Positions 19,197-54,000 of a stretch of DNA of 64,000 bases are shown here, piece after piece. Positions within the stretch are counted from its first letter, which is position 1. Each line of letters opens with the position of its first letter. Where the stretch lies: NCBI GenBank assembly GCA_030710605.1, contig CP092880.1, positions 17,833,649 to 17,897,648 of the forward strand. Reading direction: 5' to 3'. The notes beneath the pieces were generated by a model, which was not told the DNA's origin, searched no databases, and saw only the letters and a list, made by a program, of their open reading frames with translations. Origin of the DNA: Cordylochernes scorpioides. Lineage: Eukaryota; Arthropoda; Arachnida; Pseudoscorpiones; Chernetidae. Position numbers and translations under genes: made by a program.

Positions 19197-19650
19197 GATA
19201 TCCGCAATCCGTTTACCATGAACACTCATTATGGTATATTAAATTGGTGAAACCGCTGAGAATATACCACTGATGAGCCAAGCCCTCTCAATAATTTATC
19301 ATCGCAGTGAGAAAAAAAAGTAGAAGTTTGTTTTATATTTAAAATAAACATTTGTGCTTTAATTCTTTCACATTTCTTATAAACTTATTATTATTAGATA
19401 CTTTTCAAGAAAACACAGAAAGGAAATTTAATAAATTAAGGGCATACGTGATTAAAGAAATTCACAAATTTTGCTGCATTTAAAAATGCATTAAAATCAA
19501 AGTTCAACATGACACCCTGGATATGGCGATATCGTATCCAATGAGGATCTTCTGAGGCGCGATTATTGCTAGTTGAAAACTTTACCCAAACTTTACCCTG
19601 GATTATAAATTCCATTGAAATATATATCTTGTAAGAATGAAAGACATTTT

Positions 19651-24000: not shown

Positions 24001-27000
24001 ATCTTGAATATCCTTAGAGTTATTTGCAGATTTGTAGATTTAACTCGCAAGCAGCGCCCCCATTGTGACGATGATAACAAGTTTTCTTATCACTAAGTTT
24101 GTTATCTTAAATATTATTTATCAAAAGTAAGATTATCTCAGGATGACACGGCAATTTATTTGAGACAAGAATAATGATACAATTCCAAGGCAAAGATACT
24201 ATTCCTTTAACTTCAAATTACCGAGGGAACCAATTAATATTGATTTATTCAACTTATCGAGTATTTTTAATGGGACCGGGAAAAAATGTTCACTTTATCG
24301 AGAGATTCAAATTTACGAGTTTCAAATGATCAAAATATATCTATTATTTTTTACATATGTTATATTCAAATGACATTTATGTGAGGATAATTTTATTGTT
24401 AATTTTCATTTTGATGTATTGTATACATTTGATCATTAATAAATTATTATTTAGGTATTAAAACTGCCTTTTTGTTCAAAGACAGCAACGTTTGAACGGG
24501 TACAGCTAGGTGGAGCAGATAATCAAACATAAAGTTATCTTGCCAAGTATAGATTCAGTAGGGATTGGATGTTTTCTAGAATTGTTTTAACTAATGTTCG
24601 TTAGGTAAACTTCCACCAGGGTAAAACCCGGGCGAAGCCGGGTACATCCGCTAATTTCAAATATAAGAAGTAGTGCATGAGGCAGGTTTTGTATTTAAAA
24701 CTGGAGTTAGTGATTATACATAATTGAGGAGTTAAATATTTTCAAAATATTATTTGAAGTGATAAGCAGTATGGGGATTAGATCAATTATATTTCTTACA
24801 GATAAACAACACCTTTAAAATAATAATTATTGTGTTCAAGGTCTCTAAGTTTCAAAAATTTTGAAATTTTCTATTTTTGAGAGAGAGAGATTTGAAACCA
24901 GTAATATTACTTACCAGGCGAGGAAGGCTGGTCCGGTGAGGAATTTAAGAACATCGGTATCACTAAAGTTGAAAGCTCTCAAAGTCTGAAATACACACAG
25001 AGACAACCTGTAAGAAAGAAAAACTGGTTACCAACATGGCAGTACATTTAAGATATAGGAGAAGTACCAGGTGATCGAGTACAGAGTTTAAAACACAAAC
25101 TCCGACAGTCAATAAGCCGGTATGGAATCATTTCAGAGGCAAACTAAGACCTATCTATTAGATAAATATGAGGTTGTCCCAAAAGGTTCGTGTTTTTCTT
25201 AAAAAATGTCTTCTTTTTACTCGGCGAATACTATTGTATCAAAGTATTTATTATTTTATTAACAGAGTATTATTTCTTATGTTTATATTTTGTTACTCTG
25301 TAAACTTCCCTGGTTGCTTATCTTTTGTTTATCCTTCATAGTTTGTTCTTGTTTTAAATAGATTGTTGTTTCATCCTGAAGTTTGTTTTCCCTAATATTT
25401 TCACGTGGCAATATCATTACGGTAAATACATAATACAGTAGAACCTCCCTGTAAAGGACAACACCTAATTACAGAGTCAAAGTGTCCTTTAGAGAGAGGT
25501 GTCCTCTTACTGGAGAGTTGCTAAATAGTAAAAATGGTAATTTTGGCAATGAAAACTGCCCTTTATAGAGAGGTGTCCTCTAACTGGAGTGTTCTCTCAT
25601 GGAGGTTCTACTGAAATACATAATAATACAATTACTTTATACACAATACAAAGACATTATACATAACGGCAAATAATATTGGTATTTCAATTTTTGAAAG
25701 TGTTTACGAACTTTTAAGACAACCTTGTATAATAACGAAAAAAAAAAGTAAATGTCATCAGAATTTTTAATCCATTACTTTCAAGAAATTATTAAAACCC
25801 GAGAGCGGATAAGTAGGGATATGCTTTGAATATAAAAAATCTTGTTGAAGTAGAAGAAGAAATTAATGTGGGATAGCCTTATACCATGAGCTGAATTAGA
25901 ATCTGAAATAATTTCTCTTTAAACTATCTCGAGACATCAATGTACTATGGGCTGAATCAGAATGTGAATTAATTCCCTTTAAACACTATCTGGAGACATT
26001 AAATAAGTCTCTTGCTGAGCATCGAGTCGATTCTCTTTATAGGAGGAGGCTATGTGGCGAAGAAATAATTTATTATTTAATATAATATTATTCATTGAGA
26101 ATATTCAACTGATTATAAAAATATATATTACTCTGTAAAACGACATTTAAAGAATATCCCGCATGAGTTTCTTTTCAACGAAAAATCAAAATTTATTTTA
26201 AGGAGAAATAATCGATATTTCTCCTTAAAATAAATTTTGATTTTTCGTTGAAAAGAAACTCATGCGGGATAATCTTTAAATGTCGTTTTACAATCACAAT
26301 CACAAGCCGCATTATATTGTATTATATATTACTCTGTAAGAATGAAATACTTTATGAGGAAAGAGTTTCTTTATTACACAAAATTAAATCACAAGCTTTC
26401 GGGCATAATCACCCTTCTACTGGTGTAAAACGAGACAAAATATTAGTGGCATTCAGCTATATATATATATATACAAAAGGTAAGAAAATAAGACAGATAT
26501 GTAAAATTGTGCCAGAGAAAATTAACATAATATTGGAGGATCATTCACAAAAGTTAAGCAAGGCAAGTAAATAAACGCATAATACATTCAATACATGGCC
26601 ACCACAGAAACTAAGTACGAACAACGACTGTTAAACGAAATAAAACAAAATAAAATAGAAATAAAATAAAATAACCAAAACTGTCATTGACGTGTAAAAG
26701 TATAAGTATGTTATGAAACCTAATCTTTCAGGTAGGAGGTTCCAGTACTAAATTATCATATATTTCAGGAAGGTCTATTGCTCTATTGAACAAATCGGCG
26801 GCCATAGCACGAATTTTGAATAGAAATGGTGTAAACACATATTTCTCCAACACACTCAGTCTGGCAACCAAACTAAAACAGACAATAGCAAGAAGTAGTG
26901 TAACCATTGATTCCCTTAACACCCACAATGCCATTTACTCCATATCATGTGAGCAATGTGATGCCAAGTATGTCGGAGAGACTGGGAGAATGGTGAAGAC

Positions 27001-30000
27001 CAGAATGGTGGAGCATGATAGATCGGTAAAAAGGAAAGATCCCCGCTCTCTAGTTTACCAACACATACGGGACACAGGCCACACATTCAATATCTATAAC
27101 CCCTCGGCCCATTATCATGAGATTAAGAACAAACACCAGCGATTGGTCCTGGAAGCTATACTCACCAAAAAATTTAAAAGCATCAATAGAGCAATAGACC
27201 TTCCTGAAATATATGATAATTTAGTACTGGAACCTCCTACCTGAAAGATTAGGTTTCATAACATACTTATACTTTTACACGTCAATGACAGTTTTGGTTA
27301 TTTTATTTTATTTCTATTTTATTTTGTTTTATTTCGTTTAACAGTCGTTGTTCGTACTTAGTTTCTGTGGTGGCCATGTATTGAATGTATTATGCGTTTA
27401 TTTACTTGCCTTGCTTAACTTTTGTGAATGATCCTCCAATATTATGTTAATTTTCTCTGGCACAATTTTACATATCTGTCTTATTTTCTTACCTTTTGTA
27501 TATATATATATATAGCTGAATGCCACTAATATTTTGTCTCGTTTTACACCAGTAGAAGGGTGATTATGCCCGAAAGCTTGTGATTTAATTTTGTGTAATA
27601 AAGAAACTCTTTCCTCATAAAGTATTTCATTCTTAAAGTTTGGTGAAGGAATTATTACTTCAATATTACTCTGTATTCGTGAAATAACCTAAAAAATATT
27701 TTTTTGCTTTCTTGTTCAAGATACCCTAGCTGTAGATAGTTTGGTTAATAATTGTCGACTGGTCGTGGTGACGTCATCAATAAATACTTTTACATCTTCA
27801 GATATACAAAGACTTGATTTCTACGCTACAATATCTATATATATATATAAATCAATGTTTGTATGTTTGTTTGTTTGTTTGTTTGTATGTATGTCCGGTA
27901 TACAAATTCGCAATTATTAAAACTATATATTCAAATTATTCTACTTAGCTCACGAACAGCGCCCTCTATCAAAGAATATATTAAATTATGCTGATGCAAA
28001 CAAATAGATAATGCTAATAACAAACATTTATTAAAAAATCTTATCTAAATATATATCACTCGGGTAGATATGCACACGGGTCAATCCCGGGGCGAAGCCC
28101 GGGTCACCCGTCTAGTATATTATATAATCTAAAAAATGCAAATATTTTATTTTTTTAAAAGCATGTATTTTATTTTCATCATTGGCTATTCTTTTATTTT
28201 TGACCATAGATTTAGAACATACCACTTTGAATATTTTTTGTAAATATATGATATATGATGATATGATATGTATAGTTAACCTACCTAGTTTTTTTTCAAA
28301 TTTACGAATATAGAATTCATTTTATAAATTCTATATTACCGTGAAAAATAATTTTATGTGTAATTTGCTTCAAGTAATTCAAAATAAAAACTACTTGATA
28401 AGTAAATAATTATCTTTACTATTTTCACGACTGCACCTTCAATTCTCTATCTTTTTCAACAACAAAACAAAACATTCATAACATATTGTTGCACCGGGCT
28501 GCGGTTTGGATCATTCAGTCTTGATTCTCTCCTCAGACCCGTCTTGCATCTTTCCAGAACGTGTCTCAACCATCCTACAAGGTTAAACCAGTCAATAATA
28601 AGACAACTATATTTTTAGGTAACACCTAGAATCTCTCTTTATTTAACACTAGACGGGTGACCCGGGCTTCGCCCCGGGATTGACCCGTGTGCATATCTAC
28701 CCGAGTGATATATATTTAGATAAGATTTTTTAATAATTGTTTGTTATTAGCATTATCTATTTGTTTGTATCAGCATAATTTAATCTAATCTTTGATAGAG
28801 GGCGCTGTTTGTGAGCTAAGTAGAATAATTTGAATATATAGTTTTAATAATTGATTTATATATATTTTTAAAATAGCCTATCGTCTTCCCCGTATTTTTT
28901 ACCTATGTATGGAAATTTTGGTTTGAATTAGTGAACTACTGCGAATTTGTATACCGGACATACAAACAAACGAACATACAAACAAACAAACAAACATTGA
29001 TTTATATATATATAGATATCAAAGTTTAAGGCAGGTGGTGTATTTAGTGTATCAAAATACAGATGTTTTATAGTACATAATATTTTATAGTAATAATCTG
29101 TTTTTTTATAAAATAATATGTAATCTTTGTGATTATTATCATTATATTAATTTATTTTGATCATGATTTTGTTATTATATACACCTATCCCCCGATTTAC
29201 ACGGTACTTGTTTTACACGTTTTCGCTTTTACACGGTTTTCCAAATAAGTTTTTTTTTTGTTTTTATCGCACTATATACTAAATGCTACTGTGATTGAAC
29301 ACATGCGCTGTGTACACATCTCACGAGGAATCCCGAGCTTATATGTGCTGACTACATATTTTAACCTGCCAATGCATTTTATTTTTATTTCTGTGTACAC
29401 CTATCCCCCGATTTACACGTTTTTCTCAGGAACGTATCTACCGTGTAAATCGGGGGATAGGTGTATTTATTTATTTCTCTCTCTCTCTCTCTCTGATTTT
29501 CAGGCCTAGCTCTTCGGTGTCGGCCTCCATCCCGAGGCAGTGAAACTAACAAGTGTGGCGAAGGCTACCATCTACAAATACCATATTGGTCTTGAGTTGG
29601 GTAATGCCAGCCATAGCATAGACCTGCCCACTCTGTGGGAAAGAACTCTCGCAGTCCACCGGTGGCGGAGTCTTTCCCGCGGTGGGCCCCACCAATGAAG
29701 ACTGTATATATTTTATATATATGTATATTTATCAATTATTTTTATCTATTTATATCTATTTATTCATATTTTTATCATTATATAATCATATTTATTCATA
29801 TTTATAATTATTCTGTATATAACCTTATATAATCTTATATGTACTTTGAAATAAAAAGTAGTTTCAATCTCAATATCTCTCTCTCTCCAAGATCATAGTC
29901 TTTGACGAGTTTAATATTTGTTTTTGACTCGTGCTTTAGATGTACTAAATTCGAAAACTCACGTGAGAACGCCCTTGCAATCTCAGAACAATTTTTAACG

Positions 30001-33000
30001 TCTTGCAAAATGCTTTATTTTTATTTACTTCTCCTGACGAAGACAAAAGAATTTTGTCGAAACGTTGAGAAAATAAAAAACTCTAACTGGCCGAAGTGTC
30101 TATTTTTCATATAAATATATATTACTTATTAAATGTTACTAAGAAAAAAACCAATAATTTAACAGTAATATTTTTTTAAAATTCGCTCTTATCGAGAAAC
30201 AAAGAATTCTGCGATCGCTCTACTTGGCCGCCTAGGTGGAAAATCTTTCTCACAAAGAGCTATCAGGAATATCTATTATTAGGTACATTGTAAAGATATA
30301 TCTATATGTTTAGGAGTTTAACAACTCCTTCTTTGCCGGTCCCAAGCCCGGATGAAAAAGGAGGAGGGGGAGCAGTAACAAGCTCACTAAAAAACCTGGG
30401 TTCAGCTGCCCCGGCTGATAATACCTTGTAAGGGCTCCTAATCCAGGGATACAGGATGAGCAGTGTTTGTACTCCATGTTAGGAGCAGCTGCGCATGGAG
30501 TCTGTCCTCATGTCAGAGGCGGCCATTTCTTTTGGAGCTAAGTCGGCCTGCCACTGAATAGTGCTCCCAGTCTTAAAATTTGGGCTTGAAAATTTGCAAC
30601 CGCCTTTAAAAAGCGGAAAATTGTCGCTGGAAGCAACAGTTGAAAAATATGCAAATTCGCCGGCTGGCGGTAAAGATGCAAATTCAGCAACGTCGGCTGA
30701 CTTTGCGATTAAGTCGCCTTTTAACGGCGTTATCGGGCCCAAAGAAACTGGGCAAATTCATCAGAGGATGTGAATCCTGTATCTGAGGACGGCTTCACGG
30801 TCGTCCAAGGTAAAAAGAGACGCCGCGGCTCGGCGGAATCGCCTGCAGCAGCCGCACATTCCAGCAACGCCCGACGCCCTGGAACCAATCGCCGTCAACG
30901 ATCATCGACGGAAAGGGTGCCTCGGGCACAAGAAATCAAGACCACGAGAACACACATTGTGGAGGCCAGGGCGCGGCAGGCGTCTTCTACTGAGGAGCAG
31001 TGTCTCTATGTTGAGCACTGCCCTGAACTCGAGCCTTACCATTATCTCAAGGCGATCGATGAAATGGTCGGAGGGACCAGTGACGTCGTCCAGATCGCGA
31101 AAGTGAATGGGCACTTGCTGTTGGGACTTTCCAACAAGGCCCTGGCGGACCGCCTGATCAATGAAGGCCTCGAGGTTGAGGGCATGTCCCTCAAGACCTT
31201 CCCCTTCTATAGAAGAGCGGCAAGAATAACCATAGGCAACCTCCCCTTCTTTGTGAAGGATGCTTCAGTCATCGACGCCCTTTTGCCTTATGGGCGGGTA
31301 ACTTCCATCGTCCCTAAACAGCTAAAAGCTGGTAAATACGTCTACACCGACGGCCGCCGAGAGGCGTTTATTGTTCCGCATGACGGCATGACCATCGAGT
31401 CCATCCCTGCCCGCCTCGATATAAGAATAAAAGGCGAGTCCTGGCCTATGTACCTGACCTCCGGGATCAGGTGCTCTAGATGCCGCGGCCAGGGACACAG
31501 AAGAGCAATCTGCCCCTTGCTCACTGGGCAGTCCACCGGCCCCAGACGGACTTCACCACACTCCACCACCAATGTCTCTCAAGTGACCGCGCCTGAGCTG
31601 CCTCGACAGGCATCAGCCGCGTATCCTGCGCCATCGCCTCCAGATCCAGCCATGGAGGTTTCCGGCGCTCTTCCTACGGCCCCAGCCGCGCCTCATCAGC
31701 CTGCTGTACCTGGTCAATCGTATGGGCCGACAACACCCTCTCCCCATGGGCAAGAGACGACACCAGCCATGGCCACACCTCCGCCTCCACCATCTGTCCG
31801 AATGGAGGATGATCCGGAGCCGGACTATTGGACGGACATGGTGGATCCAATAGATGAATTGATGCGAAGTCCTGGTTCGGAGCCCATTCTCCGAACGATC
31901 GACGTGTTCGAATTCGTGGACGCGGCCCGGGACCCTGAGGTGAGGGAGTGCGTGGTCGCGGATCTTTCGCCGCGGCAGAAAAAGATTGTCGCCCAATTCC
32001 TGGATAAGCTCATCGAGCGCACTCGGGACTCGGTTCCCTTGATCCGTAGGGGACTATCTGAGTTCAGGGCCGCCTTGCCTTCCTATGTTCCAGACCCCTC
32101 CCTGAGGACACCCCCTGTTGACTCCTGACAGAGTCAGGATAATTGTAAATAATTGTAAATCTTTCCCATTGACTCTTTGAGAGGGATCATTGACTGAATG
32201 GTCAATAAAGTGTGTTTTCATTGTCATTGTCAGTCTTAATGACAAAGGCAGACGCATTCTACTTCACCCAATCATGATGGTTGTCAATTTCAAGCTTTAC
32301 AAGCTTGACACCCTAATATGATTGAGTGGAGATAAGAAAGAAGAAGAAGAAGGAGTTTAACTTCAAGAGACCTATTATTTTCTTTTGTATATGTGTGAAA
32401 GAGGTAAAACCAAGATTCCATAACTGTATCTGACCTATCTAAGCAACCTAAACTTCATATTGCAGAAAACAACACGAGAATTCAAACTAAGGATCCGACA
32501 CTACAAAAAAAAAGCAAACAGTTTTAGCTAGAGTAAATAAAAAAAACTCATCTATCAGAGACAAAATCAAGAAACGTCGAAATAATGGGGCCAAACAGGG
32601 GTTTCAACTACAAGAGTCCCAAGTGAGATTCTCAACAAGAAGGGAGAGGTACCTTGTTGAGCACAGTCTCCCAGGCCACGGGCGCTAGCACCATGTTGAA
32701 GCCGTGTAACGCCGCCCAGTCCAGCTCCTGTTCCCATCGGCTCCAGTTCCACCAAGCCATGCTGTAGCTAGCAGTGCACACGTTCTGGTAGAACCTAATC
32801 CTGCATCCACAAACAGCTATATGGTCAAATGACAGGATTCCTCTCTGTCTCAATATATGCTGTAATAGAATCTCAGCCTCCGTTCACAGACAGCTATTTG
32901 ACAGGATTCCTCTCTGCTTCAATATTGTAGCGAAGTTTTTTTAAAAATTTATTAACAGAGTATTATTTTTTTGTGTTTATATTTTGCTACTTTGTAATCT

Positions 33001-36000: not shown

Positions 36001-39000
36001 TCTTCTTGTAGCATGCACGGCATCTTCTTAAAGAATCCTTTCAACCTGTCAGGTCTTATGGGGCTTGTGGTAATTGCCTACAACGTAGATTTGGCTTTGA
36101 CATAGTAATCTACTTTTGTAAGTGATTCAGCAAGATATGAACAAGAACTGTTTAACCTTTATCATTTCTTCGGCGTGTTATAATTGGCTAGAAGTGGTGA
36201 TTCTGGGTCTCCGTGTTGAAGAGTATGTTGGCCTGAAAGTTCGAGAAATAAAGGAATTGTCAAAAGAAACTAAAACCTAGATTCCTTATTGATTCTATCG
36301 AAACAACTAGATTTGAATAAGATTTCAGAGTCGGATAGCTCGAAGGTTCACGTTATTTCACGGTATATATACTCTATAACAAAAAAATCGACGCACCAAG
36401 AAGGAGTTGTCAGATTAGGACAAAAATTGGTGTATGTAAAGAGCATGTATAGGGGAAAAAACGATTAAAATTTCAGAACAATTAATTGTTTTATTTCAGA
36501 GTTTGATCAATCAGTTGCATGTTTGGTCGAAACCTTTTTGTATACGTATTTTCATATAAATCGGACAACTGCTTCTTGGTGCGCCGATATTTTGTTATAC
36601 AGTGTATTTGGATAAGTATAAACAGACAACTATCGATTTCAGAAGATGACCAACTTCTGCGACGTGTACAACGGAATTGTTTGAGATTCTTCGGTCACAT
36701 CGCGCGACACAGGGGAATGGAGTACACCATACTGACTGGAAAGACGTCTGGGCGATGTATACCTGGACGCTCGACGACACGCTTCGTGGACCAATTAAAG
36801 GAACTTACTGGTTTAACGGTCGTCTAGATGGTACATCGAGCTCAAGACAGAGATGGCTGGCGTCGCATCGTATTTGGGATGTAATACGTACAATGGACCA
36901 CAACGTTCGATCGTGAATAGAATGATATTACTACTTGGATAAGAAATGTTGCTGTACATATTATACGTTTTAACAATCCCAGTATTTTTCAGCCAGGGTA
37001 AGATAAGTGGTGTATTGCTAACTGTGACACTTGGATAAAAACTTACTTAGTGTAAAAGCAAGTATATTTTAGCGTATATTTTAAAGTGTTAGTATCTATT
37101 AGATAAATTACTAAGTATACTAGGGGCTAGCAATAAGAAAATTTAGGACCTTGGCACTGAATTTACACAAGAACTGTTTAAACCATTTTCACTTCTTCAA
37201 ATGTTTGATTGACTATTCTGCCCGGCATTTCCATCAAAGTATAGCGTACAAATCCAAGAAAGTACTAATGTCAGGACGACAAGGCTACTAAACCATTGCT
37301 ATATTATATATTATAAAAGTTTGTTATTTATGTGGGTAAAATACTAAGTACAGTGAAACCTCCATGAGGGGACACTCACGCTAGATTACACCTCTCTACA
37401 AAGGACAGTTTTCATTTGCAAAATTATCATTTTTACTATTTAGTAACTCTCCGGTAAGAGGACACCTCTCTTTAAAGGACACTTTGGCTCTGCAATTAGG
37501 TGTTGTCCTTTATAGGGAGGTTCAACTGTATTTTTGAGGCGAGCAATAAGGAGGTTTATAACCTCGCCCCTGAATATCCACATAATAGACATACAGCACG
37601 TATTTCGAATTAAAAATGTTATTTTATATTTTAAAACGTTCAGTTAAAGACTTAATTATTGTTGTTTTTATTACAATATAAAAAGTTAACGTATAGTTCT
37701 TTTTAAAATAATCCAATACTTAATATTTATAATACATTTTGTTTTCTATTTTAGTGTCAAAATGGATGTAGCCTCACCGAGTCTCCACACATACACTCCT
37801 ATAGCTGGTATTGACCCGAAGTAACTATGCGACGCTCTTCGCCTAGCATTGATCCGAGCTGCTTCCAATTAAACTTGTGTTAAAACCCTCTCTCTCTCTG
37901 TGTAATCCTATTTCACGCTGAGCTCCTTTCCTAACTGGCGACTTTACTAAACATCGCTTTTCTTTTAACTCTTTAAAAAAAATATGGAGTTGGTTGATAT
38001 TTTTCATGAATGTCATTGCTTGTATTCTCATCATAGGATAGATTTGGTTAGTAGATTTTGGTATAAACTTAAAATATGATTATTGTCTTATATCGACATG
38101 GAAAGATCGCTAAATTTGCGCCTATACTGTAAGGGCAGCTGGCATATCTACAGTATATTATTCTTGTATATTGTTGAATTATCGTTTATCAGTGAGCATA
38201 CTATTATCTGTTGGATCGTTTTTGAAGACAACTCTCAGGTTTAACAAATTAATTTTATAAATCTCAGAGTTGTCTTCAAAAACGATCTATTAACTCGTTT
38301 CTCTCTATATAACTAAAAATCTTAAATATTTATTTTTGACTCGTGCTTTTGATGTTGTACAAAATTTCGAATATCGCGTGAGAACGCCCTTAGAGCCTTA
38401 GAATAATTTTTAACGCCTTGCTATATGTTTTAATTTTTGTTTGCTCCTGACGAGGACAAAGGCTTTTGTCGAAACGTCGAGGTAATAAAAATATTTATAC
38501 TGGCCGAAGTATCTATTTTCAAGAAATAACTAAATATGTTTAAAGTTTAATAAAATAATTTTATAAATATCAGAGTTGTAACATGAATCATGAAAATTTC
38601 TCTTATAGAATTGTAAATAGTTATAAAACGAAGAGAAATTTTTTTTTTAACATGAATCATGAAAATTTCTCTTATAGAATTGTAAATAGCTATAAAACGA
38701 AGAGAAAATTTTTTTTTTATTAGAATGCATGAAATTAGAAAAAAATTTTCTCTTCGTTTTATAACTATTTATATCAGAGTTGTCTTTAAAAACGATATAC
38801 TAATCTATTAAACGATATATTAACTCGTTTCTCTCTCTATATCTAAAAATGTTTAAAGTTTAAAAAATAATTTTATAAACCTGAGAGTTGTCTTCAAAAA
38901 TGATTCAACATTATCACTGATTGTACTCTGTGGACTCGCAGTACATAAACATACGCGTAAGCCATCAGAAACTTTCAGTTGCACGATAAGGAAATGCCTT

Positions 39001-42000
39001 TTTCATAATTTATGAACCTTATACCAGTACAAAATCACATTTGTACTATTATTTTCATATTGTGTCGTGGTCTCACGCAATTCTGGCCTTAACTACCCGT
39101 TTCATGATTTTTCAGGATGCCTGAATGACCAGTTTTTTGGTCGTTGAGGTACAGCTTGCCTCACGCTGATGGGAGCCAACAGCCCGAAACGCGTAGGTGG
39201 TTAGTTTTTCTTGATTAATCAAGAATGGGTATTTGGCCAATTCTGGAATAATTAAAAATCAACGAGAATAGTTGATATTTATTCCTATAGATGGCAAAAG
39301 CCATCAGCAACTTTTCAATTGCACGATAAGGAGATGTCCTTTTTCATAATATAAACATACGTTGATTGTCTTACCTTAACAAAGAAATAAATACTTTATT
39401 TTAAAACTACCCAATTACTTCTTGCTGGTTAACATCAAACAAACACAAGGACATTACAGATACCAATAATAAAGAATCTGTTGTAGAATAGTGTGAAGAT
39501 ATATAAGTGATGTGAAGAGAGAAGAAGAATTGACATCAACAATATATTTCTCCCGCGTGCATCATTTGCTTTATGTGAATTCTACAGGTCACGCCTCACT
39601 CAAACTACACTGCGTAACATTGAAAATGGAACACCAAGAAATAGTGGCCAGAAAGTGATGAAACTCGGCAGACAGAGAGAGACAGGGACGAACAATAAGT
39701 GATCTTTATTTCAAAATGATAGTCATAATACAGAGCGAGAACGGCGTCGGCTTAGTAGCAAGTAGGACCACCGCGGACGGCGATGCACGCAGCAACACGT
39801 CTAGGTAGAGAGTCAATCAGAGTACGGATGGCGTCCTGAGGGATGGCTCTCCATTCCCTCTCAACCATTTGCCACAGTTCGTCTTCTGAACGCGGCTGTG
39901 GCAAGGCATGCAAACGGCGTCCAATGATGTCCCAGACGTGCTCGATTGGTGAGAGATCAGGAGAGTACGGTGGCCAGGGAAGCATCTGTACATCTTGCAG
40001 AGCTTGTTGGCTAATGCAAGCAGTGTGCGGTCGGGCGTTATCCTGCTGATAAAGGGCATTGGGTACCCCCTGAAGGTAGGGGAGTGTCACCGGTCGCAGA
40101 ACATCATCAACGTATCGTTGGGCCGTCATAGTGCCCTGAATACGAAGTAAAGGTGACCTGGAATCATACGCGATTGCGCCCCAAACCATGATTCCACGTT
40201 GTCGCACGGTGGGGCGTTCCACAATTGCTGCCGGATTGGACCTTTCTCCACGTCGACGCCACACGCATACACGGCGACTATCACTGGACAAGCAGAAACG
40301 CGACTCATCTGAGAACACGACCCTGTGCCATTCCGTCATCCACGTCGATCTAGCCCGGCACCATTCCAAACGTTGACGCCTATTCGGTGGGGTCAATGGC
40401 AGTCTTCTTAGCGGACGGCATGAGTGCAAGCCATTAGCAACCAATCGACGGGAAATGGTTCTGGTCGAGATGGAATGATCTAGGGTGTCTTGCACATGTT
40501 GCAGGATGGCGGTACAAGTGGCTTGTGGGGCCGCCACTGCTTGTCGAAGGATACGCCGATCCACACGTGCTGACGTCACTCTGGTTGCACCGACATTCCT
40601 ATAAATTGCCACATTTCCTTGTTCCAACCATCTTCTCCACAGTCGGTGCACCGTGGACGCACCAAGGTGTGTATCAGCTGCGATTTGACGTATGGACCAA
40701 CCTGCCCTTTTCAGTCCGATCACCATGCCCCTCGTAAAAGCGTCTGTCTGCTTGAACTGCCTCCGTTTACGATGACCTGGCATTCTCTGTTATTACACGT
40801 GTCTTTTGACACAAGAACAAAATTTATACAATGATTTTCCTTGAAGAAATAACGACACGAATACTGTCCTTTCTGCAAGTTCCTTCCCTTATATCTTACT
40901 CCATGTGCGCACGAGAGCTGCGCATTTTACATCATTTGCATAACTCGGTTAGGCGCGTCTACCCTGAAATTTGCATAATTTTCTGGCCACTATTTCTTGG
41001 TGTTCCATTTTCAATGTCACGCAGTGTATCTACAAAGGGTTATGTTACAAGGTTATATATGAAAAAAAAAAAAACAATAGAAAAAATAAAAGATAAGTGG
41101 GTCAGGTGTTGATATTAAAAATAAAGAAGGCATTTCCTGAACACGAGCACATGTGCTTTTTAGATGGCAGAGTGCCATCTAGTGGAGCAAAAATAAACTA
41201 AATGTTATTTAGCTTGCTCCATGATATTTGGCCAACCCAATTTCTTGATAATTTAAAAAAAGCCATCCACGAAATTTTTGGTCACAGTGGTTACAGCTTA
41301 CTCCACGCTGACGAGCGCCAACAGCGCGAAACGCGTTCGTGGATGGCTTTTCTTGATTTATCAAGAAATTGGGTTGGTCAAATATCACGGAGCAAGCTAA
41401 ATAAACGTTTATTTTATTTTTGCTCCACTAGATGGCGCTCTGTCATCTAAAAAGCACATGTGCTCGTGGTCAGGAAATGCCTTCTTTATTTTTAAGGTTA
41501 TATATGTTACATGGTTTTGTCTATGGTGTAAGATAAACAAGTGATGGATAGAATCTTATTAAATGGGACACGAGTGGTAGCTAGGTTTCAAGTTGGGTAA
41601 AATTAGAACTTTCTTACTTTTTTATTCTAAGGCTAGGATTTATGGTGGAAAACTCTCAAGACCTCGTTAAAAAGATTCCTTATATGAATTTAGTACATAA
41701 TTAGTAAAGATATATATATAGGAATTGTAACCAAAGTAGGATACGATAGAATGTCTTCTAGTCTACTATAAGATTTTTAGGAATGTTAATAACTTTTAGT
41801 TAAAACTAGTCAGTAGAGGGCGAGCTTTGGTTGCATCATAGCCACAAGAATTTGCTGATGAAAGCTGGCAAAGTAGCTAGGTCAATTCTAAGGCCAAAAT
41901 ATAGATAAGAATTTTGCCGGAAAGAAATTATCTGAAAATATACTTCTTATATTCCAAAATCAGCCCAGAAACTATGTGTAGCTTGTTATGGGGATTGCGT

Positions 42001-45000
42001 AGAGATGGCGAGGGTTCCACCATTAATGTAGACGGAAATGTGTTCGAAGAGTAGAATGACTGCAAATGTGAAGAACACCTGTACATATTATCCATTGTAG
42101 ATATCATAAGCTAGGTTGATCTTTTTGAGCAGTGTGTGTACTAATATAGTTATTTTAAACATGTACTGGAGGGTAGAATGCATCGACTATTTACTGCCTC
42201 TCCTAAAGGTGGTCTCAAATTGGAGGTTGGCCTTTCATCATGGATTTCTCTCAATGGAAGGTTTTCAGTATTAGAGTGGAACTATAAATGAATCTACCTC
42301 TTCAATCTAAACGTCAAAACCTCACAAATGACACTCATCAGAGAATCTACTGGAATATAAACAGATTGATTCTAACGATCATTTTAACAGGTGGGGGTCG
42401 GTGGAAGGATGGTCTAAACCCCACGGGTCGGCAAACTTTTGAATTGGAAGAGTCAAAAATTACAATTCACAAAATTTCAAAGTTTTTAAAGAGCCACAAT
42501 TTTTTTCTTGCTTACAATAGATAGTACTCGCATAAATAATATTTACGTATGGAACTATATAAAGAGCCGCAGCTTCACATCCAAAGAGCCGCATGTGGCT
42601 CGTGAGCCGCAGTTTGCCGACCCCTGATCTAAACCGTTGGTTTTCGACCGCTACAACCAGGGTTCGATTCCCGCATTGGGTATTTTTTTTTCTGATAAAA
42701 AAATGCTTCAATGTCCCTCGATTCTTGCCAAAGTCCAACTCCACCAGCGAGTGCAAGTAAACAAACGGGGTTCTGGCATATTTGTAGGTGCAAAGTCGAA
42801 CTGCTTTTCACATGTGTAGACATATGGTGTACTTACAGTGAAAGCAGTCATCTACTTCTACCCACCATGATTATAATGGCCTGTACCATGTGTACTAGGG
42901 ATAAGATAACAGGTTGTTGTAGCAGAGAAATGTACATACCTGAAGCGTGGCTGATCCTCCAGGGGAACTCCCACGGGAGGCAGAGCCCCGGGGGGTAGTC
43001 TGAGGTTTCGGGCCCCCCAAGTCACCTGTCCCCCACACCACTGGCGCAGATAGCGGTACAGTCCAGCGGCCACGTTCACCCCGCTCGATCCTTGCACGGC
43101 GATCTTGCCATCGTCAGGATGGTCGTAGATCTGGACAGCCAGTCTACATCCAGTATCTGGGAAACTTGTCATGTTCAAGCTAGCTGAAGAACAGAGGCCC
43201 GGAGTGATAACCATTGTAAAATCAAAATTGACTTAATCGACATAAACTCACCCTCCCAGAAGAGACCAAAGAGCGTTTAACGGTCTCTCTTATTAGAATT
43301 TCTACTGTACCTGTCTATATCATACAATTGCCAAATTGTCCATATCATATCATTATCAAATTGATCAAATCATACAATGGTTATCCCATAAATTTGCTTT
43401 TACAGAATAAGGAGATCAAGGGTTAGAGCCATAAACATTTATATCAATGTGAAAAAATAATGTAAAAAAAAAATTAAATAAAGGTCAAGTGTTGGTATCA
43501 AAATAAAAAAAGGCATATCCTGACCACGAGCACATGAGCTTTTTAGATGGCAGAGCGCCATCTAGTGGAACAGAAATCAACTAAACGTTGATTTAGCCTG
43601 TTCCATGATATTTGGTCAACCCATTTTCTTGATGGCTTTTCTTGATAGGGACTAATAGGGACACTTGCACTGTCATACATGTATGCCTTTACATTTGTCT
43701 ATACATATTTATTTACAATAATTTTAGGTCGTAAAGAGAATATTCATATGATATTAACAAGGAGAAAGGGAAAGAAAAAACGAGAACATAGAACTCTGTA
43801 CAAAAGAAAGAAGTTCCTGGCAATATGTACAATCAACATAATATAAATTATCAGTTTCTTAAAATATATTTGTTGCTATATAATTTAAAATATATCTACA
43901 AAAGGTATTGAATTTAATATACATTTCTTTACTGGAAATAAAATACTTGGATCTGTTACTATTAAATATTGTTAATTCTATAGACTTGAAAACAGGACAA
44001 TCCAGTAAAAGATGTATTGAGGTTTGTTCCTCATGTCCATTCTACTCTATATTTGAGTTGATGTCACTTTCTAAACGTGAAGAAATCTGATGACAAATTG
44101 TATCTCGTATTTGATGCATTATTCTTGAGGGGATGCTATTTCTGTGAAAAATAGACATTTCGGTGAGTTAGAGTTTTCATTTTCTCAACGTTTCGACAAA
44201 AATCTTTTGTCTTCGTCAGGAGAAATAAATTAAAGTAAAGCATTTGGAAAGGCGTTAAATTTGTTATTTGGTAAACAAATATTGTTGAATCGAATTAAAA
44301 ATTGAATGTTTAATTATTTAGTAAATCAATATATAAATATCGTAGAGGCTGATTGGCCGGCATTCATATTTTTCATAGAAATGCTTTATTTTTATTTACA
44401 TCTCCTGACGAAGACAAAATATTTTTGTCGAAACGTTGAGAAAATAAAAAAAACTCTAACTGGCCGAAGTGTCTATTTTTCACAAAAAAAAAAAGTATAT
44501 ATTTGTATATAGTAACAAAAAACAGAAATAAACAATCAATAAAATGGAAATTCGACACTATTATAGAGGCGTATGATTCTTTTAAAATTAAACAATTTCT
44601 ACTGCCTTTACTGCCCTAAATCCATTGCAGTAAGGGAAGTATTGTTTTGTCTAATAATTGTCTAATTTTTAAAAGAATAATACGCGACTATAATAGTTTC
44701 GAATTTTCATAACAGATGGCGCGCTAATGCATCATGAACAAATATTATACAATAAAACTATTATTTTAATTTGAATGACTCTTCTCAAACTTCAAGGCCA
44801 AATCGAACAATGATCCAACTATAGAGGTCTCACAAGGGTTGGTTCAGAACCTAAACAAACAAGGCCATGATCAACTAACGATAGTGGTCACGAAGGTATA
44901 AAAAGTCGATTTTCCATAGAGACCCACCCACTCTCAATTCTAAAACGTTTAACAAAGGCCTACGTTTAGTTGGACAAAAAAAAACGAATTTGAAACTACT

Positions 45001-48000
45001 CTTTCTTAGAACGAAATAAACGGTATTTTTCCAATTTACTAAAAGATGAAAACTACTTACTATCCATTCGTAAAATATATCTAATTTATTATTAACTGTA
45101 AATTGATTTTAAAAGGTTTTCTAACCAAAAAGAAATAACACAATCACTTATCCTTTGTCCCCCTTAGACCGAATTCGAGTGAACGAGATCTTTAAGAGTA
45201 ATTTCTTCAGTTCCTTTTATATACTTATCAATCCAAATACATTTAGGTATATGCTGAGGAATTTAATTTTGTATATTCACATAAGGCTTTTGTTCCTTCT
45301 CTATAGATCATTGAGCGTAGGTGATCTGGTTTCCATCTGGCCAATTGTGTTTATTAAAATACAAATAGAGCTGAAAAAATCTCCTAAAAGTGAACTATAA
45401 TGACAATACCAATGATATTGCCAAAATTCCATCTATATAGTTGTAATTATTTTTAAAAATATATAGTCATTATTTATATATTGTCAAGTATCTCTGCAAC
45501 CCCGGCCACAGGAAGCTCCATGGGACACCTGTCAATCATCACTGGACTCCGGGGGGGACCACAGGTATGAGGGGTTCTCGGAATCTTATCGGCAAATAAG
45601 GAAAACGGGACGGTGGCTGACCACTCTCATTATTATTACCTTGGGATAAGTTGTTATCTCTCTCCCTATAAATATCTCTGGTTCAAAATCGCATTAATAG
45701 GTACCGCTCAACAAGAGCAACCTAGTTCATGATAATTGAAACAGTGAATAATATATGAAGGTTATTCACATATTAAACAAAATGTTAACGCGGGATTCAA
45801 TCCCCGTTCATGACTGTCGGGAATCGAGGGTGTTACCCACTCGTCCCCTTAAATATCTCTTGTATATAATTTTATTGGAGAACTAAAAGGTAAATATCCA
45901 CCTTTATATTAAATTAATTATTCCCAAATTTGCCCTTTCTCTATTTATCTCCGCGACAATATTTATGTTCCTCCACAACTGAGCTTCCTCTACCAGCTCT
46001 ATAAGATTTTAATAATACGGTAAAACCAACGTAAGTAACCTATACAATATTAAATCAAAATAGATTGATTAATTCAACTTCTAATAATCAAACACATCCA
46101 GGAAAGACAAGTTATATCCACTCATAGACAAAACTTAAGGAATGTGTACCTTTAAGAATGTATATCGGGATTCAGACAATAACTCTGAAAGATAAACACA
46201 TAGGTAATAAGATCAAATCCAAATAAATAATTAATGTGTGACGTTTCGGTAACAACGCTGTTGAGAGCCAGGAGCGGCCTACGTAAATGGACATACTGTA
46301 TCACACTCTGATCTGACACTGCTGATTTGACCCTGGGGGCGGTCACCTATAAAATGTCGGCTATGTCCCCTGAATCTTTGCCTCGTAGCTCCCCCCAGAC
46401 CAACTCTTTTGCTGTTTTTTTTTTTTGACGTTATCATTTTGAGTTTGAATAAAAATAAGGATGATACAGGTTACACTAATAAAGATATAGCATATCATAC
46501 AGAATATGGGGGTAGTAGCAAATAGGGACAGTGTACATTTTAATAGGAGGGTATATGATCTTAAACTATTGACTCTAACTTAGCCAATTAGAAGATGTGT
46601 GAAGTATACAAACAGTGTTATTATACTTGTATTATAATTTAAAATATACTACATATATATATTCTAAAAATATAAAGTGAGATTTGAAAATAGCAAAAAC
46701 CAAAATATGAAGAAGTAAAATAGAATCGGACGTTTATTTAAAAAAATAAACTTTTGCCAAACGCGCCGACCAAGATTGTCAAGGAATAATGGCCATCCAG
46801 TTTCTGTGGGAATTTATTGATCCAAAATGGCTGCATCGATCCGAAGAAAAACTAAGGTAACATTAAATTTTATTTGTCGGAAATAAATATCTTTATTCTG
46901 CTATCTTAGAGCTCTCAGCTTTTTTTCTTCTTGTTTCTTTTAACGAATTTAATAGTTGAGTTATTGAGAGGGCAGGAAAACTTTGTAAAATATTTTAGCT
47001 ACCTACATCAAACACATATAGAAAGAAGATTGAATTTGTTCGATATATGTCTGTATGAGAGGTTAAAATTGGGTTGATTTCATTGGCTGATGAGAGGATA
47101 GTGTGCGATGAGTTCTTTAGTTCAACGTAAATTTTGAGAATATCGTTAAAAATGAGAAAGATGACCTGAAGATACTCAGTGTTTGTAATTTCTTGCCATT
47201 AGGACTTCCTGCTAAGCTGAATACTTATTATTGATATTCTTATCTCTCATCGATTTTTTACAATATCAAAAAGCTTTATTAAGACCTTTCAGTCTTATGC
47301 AGATTCTCCGAGTAGAAATGTAGAGTACATGCAGGAGAGTAACTGCAATGGCGTAATAGTTTTGAGGCGCTCTATGCTTCTATGAATCAATTTCCTCCAG
47401 ACAAATTTTCCATCTATATTTTGCCATAGGTTTGGCCCAGCCACTTTGCCATCTAAACACCTCTTTGGCAGATTGTGAAGATTCCATTAGATTCCGTTTA
47501 GATCTCATGGAATAAAGTCCGCCCTAGACTGTCGAGGGCCATTAGCCCGAAACCATGGTCTCTAGGTGGACGCTTGTCATTTTTCCAAAGCTGGTGTTGT
47601 GGCTTTGTTACCAACCCGAGGCCGCTAATTTGCGTCGACGGTCAATAGATGGCGTCTAGTTTTGACTTTGACGTTTATTTTGACGGGAGAAGCGTCTTAA
47701 GCTTCTATGGATCAATTTCCTCCCGGAAATATTCCATCCATAGTGATAGTACCAGAAATAAGCATTATTATTATTATTATTATTATTAAAGATAATCAAA
47801 TAAAGGTAATATGGAATTTATATACAGGAAATCTCTTAATAAAGACAATCAAGCTAATAGATTAATCCGGGTGATTTGGAGGAAAATAAATTTCTTATAC
47901 CTGGATTTACTCCGGAGTCTCTGTGAGTGAACAAAGAGTAAAATCTATAATAATATATTTAATATTTTCATAGTTCTTAAAATAAAAGATACCTCGGCCA

Positions 48001-51000
48001 GTAAATTTTTTTAAAAAGATTTACTGGCCGAAGTATATTTTATTTGAAGAACTATGAATGCCCGCAGAGCAGCCTCTATCTTTACGATAATATTTTCATT
48101 GTATTATTTTACCAAAATTACCATTATCTTATGTATTTTAAATATCAAAATTTACTTACTCGACTTAATCAGCATATTTCTATTTAAATACAGCTTATTA
48201 ACATAATATTATTACTATTTTCATAAAAGAAATATCTATATTTTTAAAATATAACAGAAAATCCTCCTTTCCATTTGTTTCTTTTCTTTGTTGATGTTTT
48301 CATCTTCTGATTTTTTTTAGATGATGATAAGTTCTTTTTTTTTCACTGATGACTCGTGACAATATTCATAGTGAAATTAATATAACGAATGAAGACATTA
48401 AGACGCGAATGTTTCTTTTCACAAATAAATCAAACTTCTACTGTTCTTACTGCGATGAAAAAATATAGGGAGAGCTTGGCTTATCAGTGGTGAACCCTCC
48501 CAACGGTTTCGCCAATTTTTTTTTTTTTAATCTACCAGACCGCTTCTTTAGAGATCCAATACTTTATTGGATCATTCTGATTTTATATGGATGCACTGAA
48601 GGGTTGAATCTTAGAAATGGTATTTAAGCAAACTATGTACATAAGCTTTTAGGATAATAGAAATACATTCAACATTTGTGAAAAGAAACATTCGTGTCTT
48701 AATGTCTTCATTCGTTATATAAAGATGGCGCGTTATTGCTTTGTATTAGTGAAATTAATAGTTAAATATTAAAAGTGAAATGTAAAAACACAAGAAAAAC
48801 TCTTAATATTGATTAGGTTTTACTTCTTGACCTCCTTGATGATCAGACGATAATCCCTGATGAGATGTAAGACTTAATCCATAAGACTTAGTGGAAAGGT
48901 TTCTTTCATTCAGCTGTCAAACATCACATGACCTGTCTGACCATCACAATAGGTGATTATACCATGATAAAAGTCTTCATATGTTAAATTGATATAATTT
49001 GGGTGCACATAACTATAGTTTGTAAAAATATATTTAAATTTAAATAAAATAAAACTATTTTTTAGAAAAATATTTGTGGTGCTTATCTCCATGGTTAAAC
49101 CAATTCCTGAAGTCCACTTCTCTCCAATTTTGCGATGGTATTTATAGGCCTGGAAAATAGGTCCTCTATTGTCAGTTCTGAGCATGATATGTTCCGGAGA
49201 AGCATCTGCACTATTACATTTCAAGCAGTTATTGAAGGTTTTTTTTGTATATTTTAAAATTTTAAGGTTTTTATATGGCCACTTTTTAGTCTTGCTAAAG
49301 CTGTTTGTTGATTTCTATTGAGTTTTTGAAGTTCTTCTAATTGTTTCAATGGTTTGTACCAGTGATGATTTGGATATGTAACCGATTCAACTAAAAAAGG
49401 TACAGACGTATCATTGAAGCATTATCCTGATAAAAAATGCATTCGTTTATATCTAATTCTAAAAACCTTGTGAAATAAAGATATGTTCCGAAGACTTGTG
49501 ACATTTGACAGCTAAATAAAAGAAACATTTTCCCTTTATCTTTTCTCGATTTAGCGGTACGTTATATCTATCTAAATGTCTTTTTTCATTGGTGTTCAAG
49601 TGCTCTCAACAGAAACAAAGATAGAATGGTTATTCTGATTTATCTTATACCATTTCATAGAAGACTGTTATTCACACACCAATGTTATTCTCTATGACCG
49701 GTAAAATTCTTATTGAGAGAGATGTGGGAGTCCTCTTGTTCCGTGAAGGTGAAATCATGGTACAACACAGTTGTCCCTTCAAGTCTAATATACAGTAAAC
49801 TCCTCGCTAAAATGAACCGAGAGTTTTAAAGCGTTTCATTCCTCTTACAACGAACTCAACTTTGGAGAATCCTTATAGTGAACCATGGCTACAGTGAACC
49901 ATGTTTATAGTGAACCATGGCTATAGAGAACCATGGTTATAGTGAACCATGGTTATAGCGAATCATGGCTATAGATTCTGTGCCATTGGACTTCGCTTAG
50001 TGTAGTTTCACTGTACCTTTGACAAGGTTTGATCTGGTAGATTAAATTGGCGAAACCGCTGGAAGGCTTCACCACTGATGAGCCAAACCCTCCCGATATT
50101 TTTTCATCGCAGTAAGGACAGTAGAAGTTTGTATTGTATATAAAAGAATCATTTGTGCTTAAATCCTTTCATTGGCGCGTTATTGCGTTATGTTAATTTT
50201 AATTTTGCTTTGCTGAAAATGTAACAAAAATCTTTTCCAAACTTAAATCTAATTTCTGTTAAAATTCAAGCCTGATTAAATATGTATTGAGTACGTGCAT
50301 AACCAACATATATATAATCTAAATTGTATCTCCTTATATTCACTGCTAGTATATAATTTTGTTGACCACCTTTGAGGGATGTTGAATTAAAGTCTGTGTG
50401 TTTAATTATAGCTAATTAATCCAGACACTGATGAAAATTTTGACATACAATCTAGCCTCTTTAATTCAACATATAAAGGGATCAGTTGAACTAGAGTCTG
50501 TGCTGAATTAGTCGATTAGATGATTTGCTTATCATAAACTCATTAAAATGATGTGTTTAAAAGTTTTTTTTGTAATATTAATCAATATATATATATGAAT
50601 TGAAACTATATTAGCCCTTTTTAAATTTCATTTAAAGTATAACTTCTTCAACCTATAAGTCGCAATGGGTAAATATTACCCAGTAGGAACTTTTAGAAAA
50701 TATTTCTATATATATATATATAAAGAAATATTTATTTAAAAATCATCCACATTTCCTCTCACTAAATCTATCTAAAAGTTTTTTATTGTGGTTTATAATT
50801 TTAAATTTATTAGATATTTTATTAGTATGTCTGTGTGTGTGGCTCAAATTTACCCAGTGCGACTTTTTGAGTGTGTATTGTGTATATTGGACTGCTATAA
50901 GCAAGCATTGATATTTATATAAATTAATTGTGTATTTGGTTCTTTTGAATATAAATTCTCAAAATGAATATTCAGCAACTGGTTAATTTTCGATTAAATT

Positions 51001-54000
51001 TGAAAAGTTGAATTTATATTGATGTTAGAAAAAAACTTTTGAATAATGAAGAAAAAGAGGTAAAGAAAGGATGAGATAAGGAATGAATGGTATAACGATG
51101 CACTCAGTCATATTTCCTATGTATTGAACGTCCTTGTTTTATGTTCTAAGGTTTGTTTATATATATTTTTAATCCACAGGTCAATCATCTATCAAAAACA
51201 TAGAATCAATTTATGGATATAATATGAACAATTCTTATGAAATTTCCATCTTCTATTAATACCTCTCAAGTTAGTTTCATAAAAATAAAAATGTATTCCA
51301 CAAATTGAATTTATTATTATATCAATAAATAATTAGTTAAAAATTTAATTTGGTTTCCTGGGTCACATCGCTTCAACAATGGGTACTTTAGAAAATAATT
51401 TTACTCTAGGTAGGATGTCTAGGAGCCTGGCAGGGCTGATTTAATCGGACTCGGCCGAGTAATGCCTAAATTGGTGGAGGCTGACTCGAGCGAACCGATG
51501 TTGGAGCTCTGTTAGAAGAGTGGTATAGGCCTACTGGGGAACCCGCCACTATAAACAAAGGGTAACGCGCCAACGGCAGTACCTCCTGGGTGGTGTGGAA
51601 ATTATGCCAAAAATAAAAGAAATAATAAATGAATAAACACACACAAATAAATATAATTCAATAAAATTAAAACGAATACTTCTATATGATCAAATATTTA
51701 TGTCCTATTTATAAAATATGTTACTTGACATTAAACATTACCATTGTGAAATAAAACCTTTCAGACCATTGACCAACACTTTCGGTATTTGATATAAAAA
51801 CCTGCTCTACAATCCGTTTTTCCAAGTTAAGAGATGTCCGAGCAGAGTGAGATAGTCAACTCTCTTCATATTTCACGTCTTGAGAGAGCATACCCTAGAA
51901 CAGGATTGTGAATATAGAGAAAACATTTGCCAAACCCAACAGCTGGGTTCTCAATTTGGAAGGGCATAGTAATGGCTCGAAAATAAAACAATGTGTTTAC
52001 AATAAACAGTCAGAAAGTCAACGTTAAGTATTGGAGTCTGAATAGAACATCTGGCTTGGCTGTTTCTTACTCTGTCCTCACAATCATTTGATATTTTATT
52101 TGAAACTCTACAAAATCCCAGTTGAATGGCTTTTTAGAATATTATATAAAAGGGCGTACCTGGATCTGTAAAGAAAAAAAAACAAGAATATTGTTTACCG
52201 GACACATGCAGAAATATTTAAACAGCATTTCTCAAAAGAATATTCTAACAATTATTGAATTTCAAGGAACAAAGATAATTTAGAAAATTTCTTTGAACAA
52301 AATTGGAAATTTCTTCATTTTAAAGGGATTATTTCAAAAACGAACGTTTTAACCGGGTCGCTCGAACGGACAAAATCCACCAATATTTCACAGTTTGAAT
52401 TATTTATGAAACCTTAACACCCTCTCTTTTTCCGCTCCATTAACCCTTGTTTATTTCCCACACTAAAATTCCAAGAATTCGAAGCCAAATATGGGAGAAG
52501 GTCCAGTGGGGATATTTGCTCTTACAAAAAGAACTAAAATGATTCGGTTGCAAGTTATTTTTATAAAATGTAGAATTTTTTAAAGTCGCTATACTAGATA
52601 TTTGAGGTAACAAAGCCAGTTATATCAGTTTTAAATTTTGAAGACCATCATCTTCTAACGCTATTAGAGACTGTGGAGTTGATTATATTGAAGACCTATT
52701 AGGTTTTTTATATTTCGCGAGAAATATAAAAATAATATGAAAAAATAAGAAATATTGAAAACAATAATGACCTATCCTGACCTCTCATATGAGCATTATA
52801 GATAATTGAGCATCATCTAGTGGAACAAAAATAAACTAAACGTTGATTTAACTTGTTCCATGATATTTATCCAACCCAATTTCTTGATAAATCAAGAAAA
52901 ATTAACCACGAACACGTTTCTGGCTGTTGTTCCTCGTCAGTGTGGAAGACTGTACCTATTAAAAATAATATATGGAAAATCGAATAAAAGAGAAAACATA
53001 TAGAATAGATAGTAAAATAGATTTTTTTAAAATCTGATAGCTCAACTGGATTTGCTGATGCCATTAATCGGAATGAAATAATTGATTTTTAAATCCCTAA
53101 TATTGGAAAACTATTCTTTTTTTGATATCAAGAACTTTTTTGCACTTGGTTATCTCGTGTGTCTTCAAAAAAGGTTACTATTTTTCAAATATCCTTCAGA
53201 GTTATTCGTCTGAATCCCGATATACAATCTAAAAGGTACAACTTCCTTAAATTTTGTCCATGAGTGTAACTTCCAAGTTCCCTATAAAAAGGTCAGAGAT
53301 TTGATAGAAGTAGGGATTCGGAAAAAGAAAGTAGGTAATGATAAAACTACATAATATTTCTGTAAAAAATAGACACTTCGGCCAGTTAGAGTTTTTTATT
53401 TTCTCAACGTTTCAACAAAAATCTTTTGTCTTCGTCAGGAGAAATAAATAAAAATAGAGCATTTGGCAAAGCGTTAACAATTCTAATTTTAACGCTTTGC
53501 CAAATGCTGTATTTTTATTTCTCCAAACGAAGACAAAAGTTTTTGTTGAAACGTTGAGAAAAAAAAAACTCTAACTGGCCGAAGTGTCTATTTTTACAGA
53601 AATATGAATACCGGTCATGCAACCTCTATCTTCGAGATATATAATTCTTATTCAGCGCCACACTGTGGCTGCTGCTATATGCAAATAGGTCAAGCTGTTA
53701 CCCCTGGAAGCCAGATGGTGGCCATTTGTCGAGACTGAATATTCTGGAAAATCCTTTCTATGTCCTTGTGATGCCTCCCATCACTTGTCTCCCTGTGGAG
53801 AGAAATTCCGCTATGAAATACCATTTTAAGTGATATATTTGATTGCTATATATCTATAAAATTTGTAACAAGTAAATTTACTGGTAATGTGTTTCTCTTT
53901 TCAATAATATCATCAAATATATTATCTCTACAGACCCTACTGCAATGATTGCAATCATATTGTAACAAAGTATTTATTAATTTATTATTTTTATTAACAG

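Follow-up and report, generated by a model that had tools for sequence, protein, structure and literature searches.

A hammerhead-like motif in a Penelope-like element of Cordylochernes scorpioides and a possible insertion mode shared with a retrozyme-like repeat

The window, a stretch of 64,000 nucleotides from the pseudoscorpion Cordylochernes scorpioides, contains several copies of a short motif that a first-pass annotation had called a textbook hammerhead ribozyme in a dispersed repeat. This raises the question of whether the motif, named alpha, is such a ribozyme, which element carries it, and what it may do there.

The alpha motif and its copies in the window

The alpha motif at 38447..38478 (+) reads CTGACGA-G-GACAAA-GGCT-TTTGTC-GAAA-CGTC and is composed of CTGACGA, an extra G, a 6-bp stem II, GAAA and ACGT, with C17 at 38478 and the predicted cut after it. 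We scanned both strands of the window for CTGANGA, a stem II with a minimum of 4 Watson-Crick pairs and GAAA, allowing 0-2 skipped bases. The results showed 6 sites, whereas 20 first-order Markov windows had 0.15 on average. One of them, at 41308, belongs to a different family, beta; the others are the five alpha copies, located where the annotation had placed them. Besides 38447..38478, these lie at 30034..30066 (+), 44187..44219 (-), 44405..44437 (+) and 53406..53438 (-).

Type I hammerheads have the invariant bases C3, U4, G5, A6, G8 and A9, then G12, A13, A14 and A15.1, and U16.1 and H17, and we found that the core bases were present, as annotated, in all five reported copies. In a canonical hammerhead, stem II stacks directly on A9 and G12 with no insertion, whereas an extra base (A or G) was found between CTGACGA and stem II in 5/5 copies. 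The 6-bp stem II and the GUC cleavage site ascribed to the motif hold at 38447..38478 only: the other four copies have 7 pairs, with one G-U in the copy at 53406..53438, and read GTT, and GUU is a poorer cleavage triplet. The proposed ACGU stem III is indeed self-complementary but is a mere loopless palindrome; three helices do not form within one strand, and this stem III is possible only between two alpha copies. It is reasonable to infer that the motif would act as a dimer, as the literature suggests for such elements. In a search with the Rfam hammerhead models, which the annotation had proposed as its check, nothing was found at the alpha sites at the gathering threshold, nor at E<=10 over the window, and a short-stretch rescan of 38400-38520, the sole alpha site rescanned, gave no hammerhead. 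The only hammerhead hint in the window was a match to the HH9 model at 41292-41357 (26.1 bits, gathering 52), which belongs to beta and not to alpha. Minimal variants already known from Penelope-like elements (PLEs) may likewise miss the covariance models. Taken together, the alpha motif is a genuine one that exceeds chance by far, yet it is not a textbook hammerhead, because it has an extra base between A9 and stem II, no real stem III, mostly GUU and no covariance-model match.

Three alpha sites were folded, and the predicted monomer was an imperfect hairpin with z scores of -3.1 to -3.5. Since the lowest-energy monomer pairs the core GACG with CGUC or CGUU, exposing the core is predicted to cost 4.0 and 7.3 kcal/mol in two alpha copies. 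The best predicted dimer was a long duplex, with no double hammerhead.

The annotation had also read the copies as a selected RNA fold whose flanks vary. The flanks of the window copies in fact align over ~110-250 bp, since all of these copies are pieces of a single retroelement, and decaying copies with conserved flanks do not by themselves demonstrate a selected fold. The list of copies was right for the five given and missed a sixth, degenerate one at 53524..53555 (+). In this copy the core start is mutated to CAAACGA, unlike the five reported copies, and it stands head-to-head with the copy listed from 53401. Also missing from the list was a pair at 47972..48089, truncated beyond the motif.

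Several other features were observed in the window. Sub-threshold matches to the Rfam twister-P1 family were found at 7260-7314 (-), 1665-1719 (-), 30318-30372 (+) and 12725-12780 (-), with 39.5, 36.2, 35.6 and 27.7 bits against a gathering threshold of 67.2 (E 3.9e-5 to 0.093). The four sites are copies of one dispersed ~256-bp repeat and may represent a twister ribozyme carried by a retroelement. A match to U4 spliceosomal RNA lies at 19514-19648 (+; 64.1 bits), and a tRNA-like gene at 63520-63595 (-) was called tRNA-Thr (GGT) by ARAGORN, with 36 bits for the Rfam tRNA model. A Tc1/mariner-type transposase frame of 343 aa with HTH_Tnp_Tc3_2 and DDE_3 domains occupies 39755-40783 (-), and tandem arrays occupy 4151-5343 (23 bp units), 1984-2829 (91 bp) and 60880-61482 (55 bp).

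The Penelope-like element and the insertion of its copies

The genome comprises 2.62 Gb in 24 contigs. An exact search for the alpha core gave 10,530 matches genome-wide (5,242 + 5,288), and the reversed control gave 0. A search of the genome for GIY-YIG gave 146 matches, 30 of which were cut out as loci. The motif was found inside the 3.1-3.3 kb stretch at 11 of these 30 loci (12 places); the stretches of the other 19 contained no motif. At L013, L025, L026, L028, L032, L035 and L036 it lies ~330-440 bases downstream of GIY-YIG on the same strand, and at the remaining four motif-bearing loci it is placed elsewhere. Of seven frames from motif-bearing loci analyzed with Pfam, 4 showed a single RT or GIY-YIG domain and 3 showed none. 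RVT_1 scored 35.6 bits in the ORF of L091 and 35 bits in L023, and in the L091 ORF a C-terminal GIY-YIG domain (residues 691-730 of 797) shares the frame with RVT_1.

Locus L091 is a natural tandem array with motif spacings of 2755 and 2755 bp, and its two complete units are identical at 2,754 of 2,755 bases. Each unit consists of the motif, a 796-aa ORF (RT + GIY-YIG) whose ATG lies 50 nt beyond the predicted cut, and a further 281 nt between its stop and the following motif. These results indicate that alpha is an endonuclease-bearing Penelope-like element, and the link to such elements drawn in the annotation is borne out by the RT and GIY-YIG proteins beside the motif. A DNA transposon had been considered as the identity of alpha; this idea was dropped in view of the RT and GIY-YIG domains that the element carries.

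The window fragments align to L091 or L080 over ~70-250 bp, and the five reported copies and the sixth are 5'-truncated fragments of one PLE, without ORF. The fragment at 38322..38525 (+) is a pseudo-LTR (pLTR) with the motif and no tail, and has 95.7% identity to L080 over 208 aligned positions. A candidate duplication of 9 bp, ATAACTAAA, flanks it (38309-38317 and 38526-38534), the left copy being separated from the fragment by a few extra bases. The fragment around the 30034 motif, at 29873..30118 (+), has 90% identity to the L091 tandem unit and no clear flanking duplication. Two coding remnants, each of a PLE family other than alpha, were also found: an RT remnant at 14856..16167 (-), which aligns with the alpha ORF in two pieces of 29% and 26% identity, and a GIY-YIG remnant at 26786..27244 (+), with 32% identity and 20.7 Pfam bits against a cut-off of 22.6.

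To describe how alpha inserts, we compared the ends of 42 alpha copies from the loci. Most of them end at TTTCAAGAA or similar, or ~36 nt beyond, after ATATGAATGCCGGCCAGGCAGCCTCTATCTTTACGATA; this longer form, the tail, was found in 16/42 and is the start of the ORF (MNAGQ...). Among the first 100 sites listed, neighbours within 1,000 bp were arranged head-to-head ('-+') in 12 cases, direct ('++') in 1 and tail-to-tail ('+-') in 0. All 12 '-+' pairs together with L047 made up a sample of 13 genome pairs, and the tail pattern was present on exactly one arm in 12 of the 13; independent tails at a frequency of 16/42 would give exactly one tail in ~47% of pairs. In the thirteenth, L072, the pattern was found on neither arm; by eye, one arm is tailed but has lost an inner part of the tail, and no more than the first eight or so tail bases are present on the other. 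In 10/13 pairs the flanks share a string of 10 nt or more, compared to 0/210 mismatched comparisons; in L047, L062 and L077 the shared string has only 6-7 nt. Duplications of 10-13 bp accompany most pairs. Since the shared strings lie on either side of the entire pair, a head-to-head pair represents one insertion event.

Two pairs in the window follow the one-tail rule. In the pair at 53354..53632, formed by the motifs at 53406 and 53524, the right arm alone carries a tail, from 53604; no clear duplication was found, the longest shared flank string being 5 nt. The very short pair at 47972..48089 also has its tail on the right arm only, and a 12-nt flank, TAATATTTTCAT, is shared between 47960-47971 and 48088-48099. 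The rule is broken by the complex pair at 44137..44488, whose left and right arms hold the motifs at 44187 and 44405. Both of its outer ends lack a tail, a duplication was looked for and none was found, and a tail-like piece lies between the arms at ~44343-44371 (-).

We also analyzed where truncated arms begin relative to the predicted cut. The first listed places supplied 40 stretches, with four others left out. These gave 50 arms, or 48 after the duplicate rows L130 and L131 were dropped, of which 25 are truncated inside -60..+17; 4 of them begin at -2..+1 and 6 at +6..+8. This signal is weak, and the 5' junctions are not claimed as a mark of cutting in vivo. Most sampled truncated ends lie off the cut site, which suggests that insertion probably does not depend on cutting.

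A second motif family and the retrozyme-like beta repeat

When a wider core pattern was used, a one-base offset gave the best stem II at 91 of the first 100 listed places; among the rest, 1 had no offset, 1 was tied and 7 lacked a 4-pair stem. Exact counts gave 10,530 alpha matches with the extra base and 7 without it, even though the pattern without the base is the less strict of the two. A second abundant family, of the form CTGAAGATGGTAACA...TGTTACCGAAACG, gave 15,444 exact matches for one form with the extra base and 2 without it. Because these counts are of copies of master elements, they show the extra base to be present in the masters of both families and do not show selection on each copy. 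The stem II letters of the second family differ from those of alpha yet pair. No alpha-like PLE protein was found within 1.5 kb of the second-family motifs at L001-L008, and we therefore do not call this family a PLE. At these loci (G000:C1 and elsewhere; L001-L008), second-family copies also stand head-to-head in places.

The candidate beta hammerhead in the window, at 41308..41337 (+), has a canonical core with no extra base: stem II, GCGC/GCGC, pairs directly 3' of CTGACGA. It has a short ACGCGU stem III and U17 and is bordered by CCACG/CGTGG. The HH9 score mentioned above was obtained for this site on a short stretch, with an E value of 5.7e-5, and is under the gathering threshold; the folding of the stretch was no better than that of shuffles (z -1.04). 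The beta pattern had 22,116 exact matches genome-wide, and its reversed control had 0. Among 100 places listed, one stem II pair was G-C in 55, C-G in 34, of the G-U type in 4 and unpaired in 7. By blastn with 150-bp flanks, six second-family loci and one beta stretch had no match to three alpha stretches. The second family and beta, the third, are better evidence for a selected fold than the window copies.

Beta forms tandem units of ~338-352 bp, with same-strand spacings of 338, 347, 349 and 350 bp, and resembles metazoan retrozymes by this sequence layout. Neighbours within 600 bp were '-+' in 7 cases, on the same strand in 8 and '+-' in 1, among 100 places listed. Five beta pairs were judged, with tails called by eye from printed ends: the window pair and L093-L096, with L097 left out since its ends are unclear. 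The results showed one tail in each of the five. The window pair, at 41062..41495, has a 53-base tail (41062-41114) on its left arm only and is flanked by an 11-bp duplication, GGTTATATATG, at 41051-41061 and 41496-41506. At L055 and L021 the tail region runs on to the next hammerhead, indicating that the beta tail is internal to the unit, as in the PLE. In AT repeats, the 10-15 nt strings shared by beta flanks carry little weight, as 5/20 mismatched comparisons reached at least 10 and one reached 16; the convincing duplications are those of the window pair and of L095 (ATATACGTGTAT). For the beta footprint, 20 stretches from the first listed places and the window left arm were used, and nine in arrays or another pair were omitted. 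Here 4/21 arms begin at -2..+2 of the cut, which is suggestive only, because AT flanks can extend matches.

Beta units were also observed as head-to-head multimers, at G000:C1:5646912-5649305 and 4055450-4056909, for example two units facing five, as if both arms had been copied from circular or multimeric RNA. At L055 (reverse complement, ~1279-1450), the end of a beta repeat lies close to an alpha PLE fragment, in a nested insertion or a chimera.

Possible roles of the motif and comparison with known systems

From its letters and position, the alpha motif is probably a minimal type I hammerhead of an endonuclease-bearing PLE, located in the pseudo-LTR just 5' of the ORF. Its most likely role would be to process tandem transcripts into unit RNAs through ACGU pairing of two motifs, as suggested by the core letters, the position between units and the dimer action suggested for PLE motifs in the available text of PMC7761336. 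In transcripts of tandem units, two motifs would pair through ACGU and be cut after GUC or GUU, and unit RNAs of 2,755 nt that start with a short 5' leader would be set free; for folding, the protein of the element may be needed, by the precedent of the anole element described below. RT would then start on two RNA copies, one per target strand, at sites ~36 nt apart, which would leave a head-to-head pair with one tail. The buried core, the 4/25 arms at the cut and the insertion of the anole element without hammerhead activity indicate that the cycle includes cutting as one step at most.

The same facts leave some room for a motif kept as an RNA hairpin, for protein or RT binding or for template choice, that is rarely or no longer a ribozyme. 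The predicted imperfect hairpin, the extra base at the junction of A9 and stem II, the few junctions at the cut site and the insertion without hammerhead activity reported in the consulted part of PMC11167929 would all fit it. This hairpin needs C at N7 to form GACG/CGUC, however, and the listed places of the second family mostly have A or U there, N7 being A in all 15,444 exact matches; the other core letters stay, but the search pattern fixed them. We consider the hairpin improbable, if worth bearing in mind. Still less probable is a resemblance with no function, in which ancestral sequences gave rise to thousands of copies and the core owes its conservation only to the young age of these copies. 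The window copies, which come from one element and are decayed with conserved flanks, are as expected under it, but the core is common to three families with no blastn flank match among the 10 stretches compared, stem II letters differ between families and still pair, and PLEs in general are reported with such motifs (PMC6155905 and PMC7761336, as far as their available text goes). Inverted pairs with duplications do look like MITEs, and the repeats could in principle be DNA transposon or MITE ends with the head-to-head pairs as terminal inverted repeats; this we find hardly credible, since the outer 3' ends are fixed and the inner ends variable, the tail is on one arm only, and the element carries RT and GIY-YIG.

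With the motif read as a minimal PLE hammerhead, it is conceivable, with the chances slightly against it, that alpha and beta are inserted by one PLE machine, in which two template RNAs are primed from each side of a break, one per nearby start site. Retrozymes would then be parasites of PLEs, and the extra base would make the alpha hammerhead slow or protein-dependent. If so, the shared machine would leave head-to-head arms, one tail and a ~10-13 bp duplication, and a slow or protein-dependent hammerhead would keep the template intact until the enzyme is bound. None of the titles and abstract openings listed in a literature search reports this shared insertion pattern. As to what moves animal retrozymes, a peculiar insertion pattern that alpha and beta have in common in one genome is a more mechanistic sort of evidence. 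The one-tail rule also has a bearing on the way in which the two RT start sites of a PLE are used. The link of alpha to a retrozyme-like repeat is the part that deserves specialist attention, and the alpha hammerhead itself would, from its sequence, be one more abundant PLE family in a class already described.

Lunse et al. in 2017 and Cervera and de la Pena in 2014 are said to have described minimal PLE hammerheads that cleave as dimers. Such hammerheads have a palindromic ACGU and, like alpha, a core without proper stem III and an association with PLEs. In the available sections of PMC11167929, the element Poseidon of Anolis carolinensis (PAc) is similar to alpha in its single ORF with RT and C-terminal GIY-YIG, its tandem units, its hammerhead at the junction of pLTR and ORF, its optional tail of 30-40 nt, and the cutting and extension of both target strands. 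The same sections place the start of the PAc ORF at hammerhead stem II, whereas the alpha ATG is 50 nt past the cut; two RT start sites bound the PAc tail and are used alike between strands, whereas the sampled alpha pairs have a tail on one arm only. The PAc hammerhead cuts only with protein present, and PAc inserts in vitro without hammerhead activity and with no reads ending at the cut site (PMC11167929). We infer that the extra base may cause such protein dependence of cleavage in alpha; the accessible part of PMC3088659 treats other hammerhead insertions and does not mention an extra base after A9.

In the part of PMC3846280 available, Penelope of Adineta vaga resembles alpha in its inverted pLTRs, with head-to-head the commonest arrangement and a tail optionally on one of them, its 8-10 bp duplications, and a pLTR and tail that reach into the ORF start. 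Its copy number is low, whereas alpha has over ten thousand exact motif matches, and the word hammerhead is absent from that source. The metazoan non-LTR retrozymes, as presented in the accessible text of PMC7229834, are similar to beta only, with a type I hammerhead of canonical core, a candidate one in beta, tandem units of ~340-350 bp and duplications exceeding 4 bp; neither the word inverted nor the word tail occurs in its main text. That text names PLEs as strong candidate movers of retrozymes, based on shared type I hammerheads, tandem copies and co-existence (PMC7229834), and the one-tail layout of beta, in five pairs, supports this published and as yet unproven idea.
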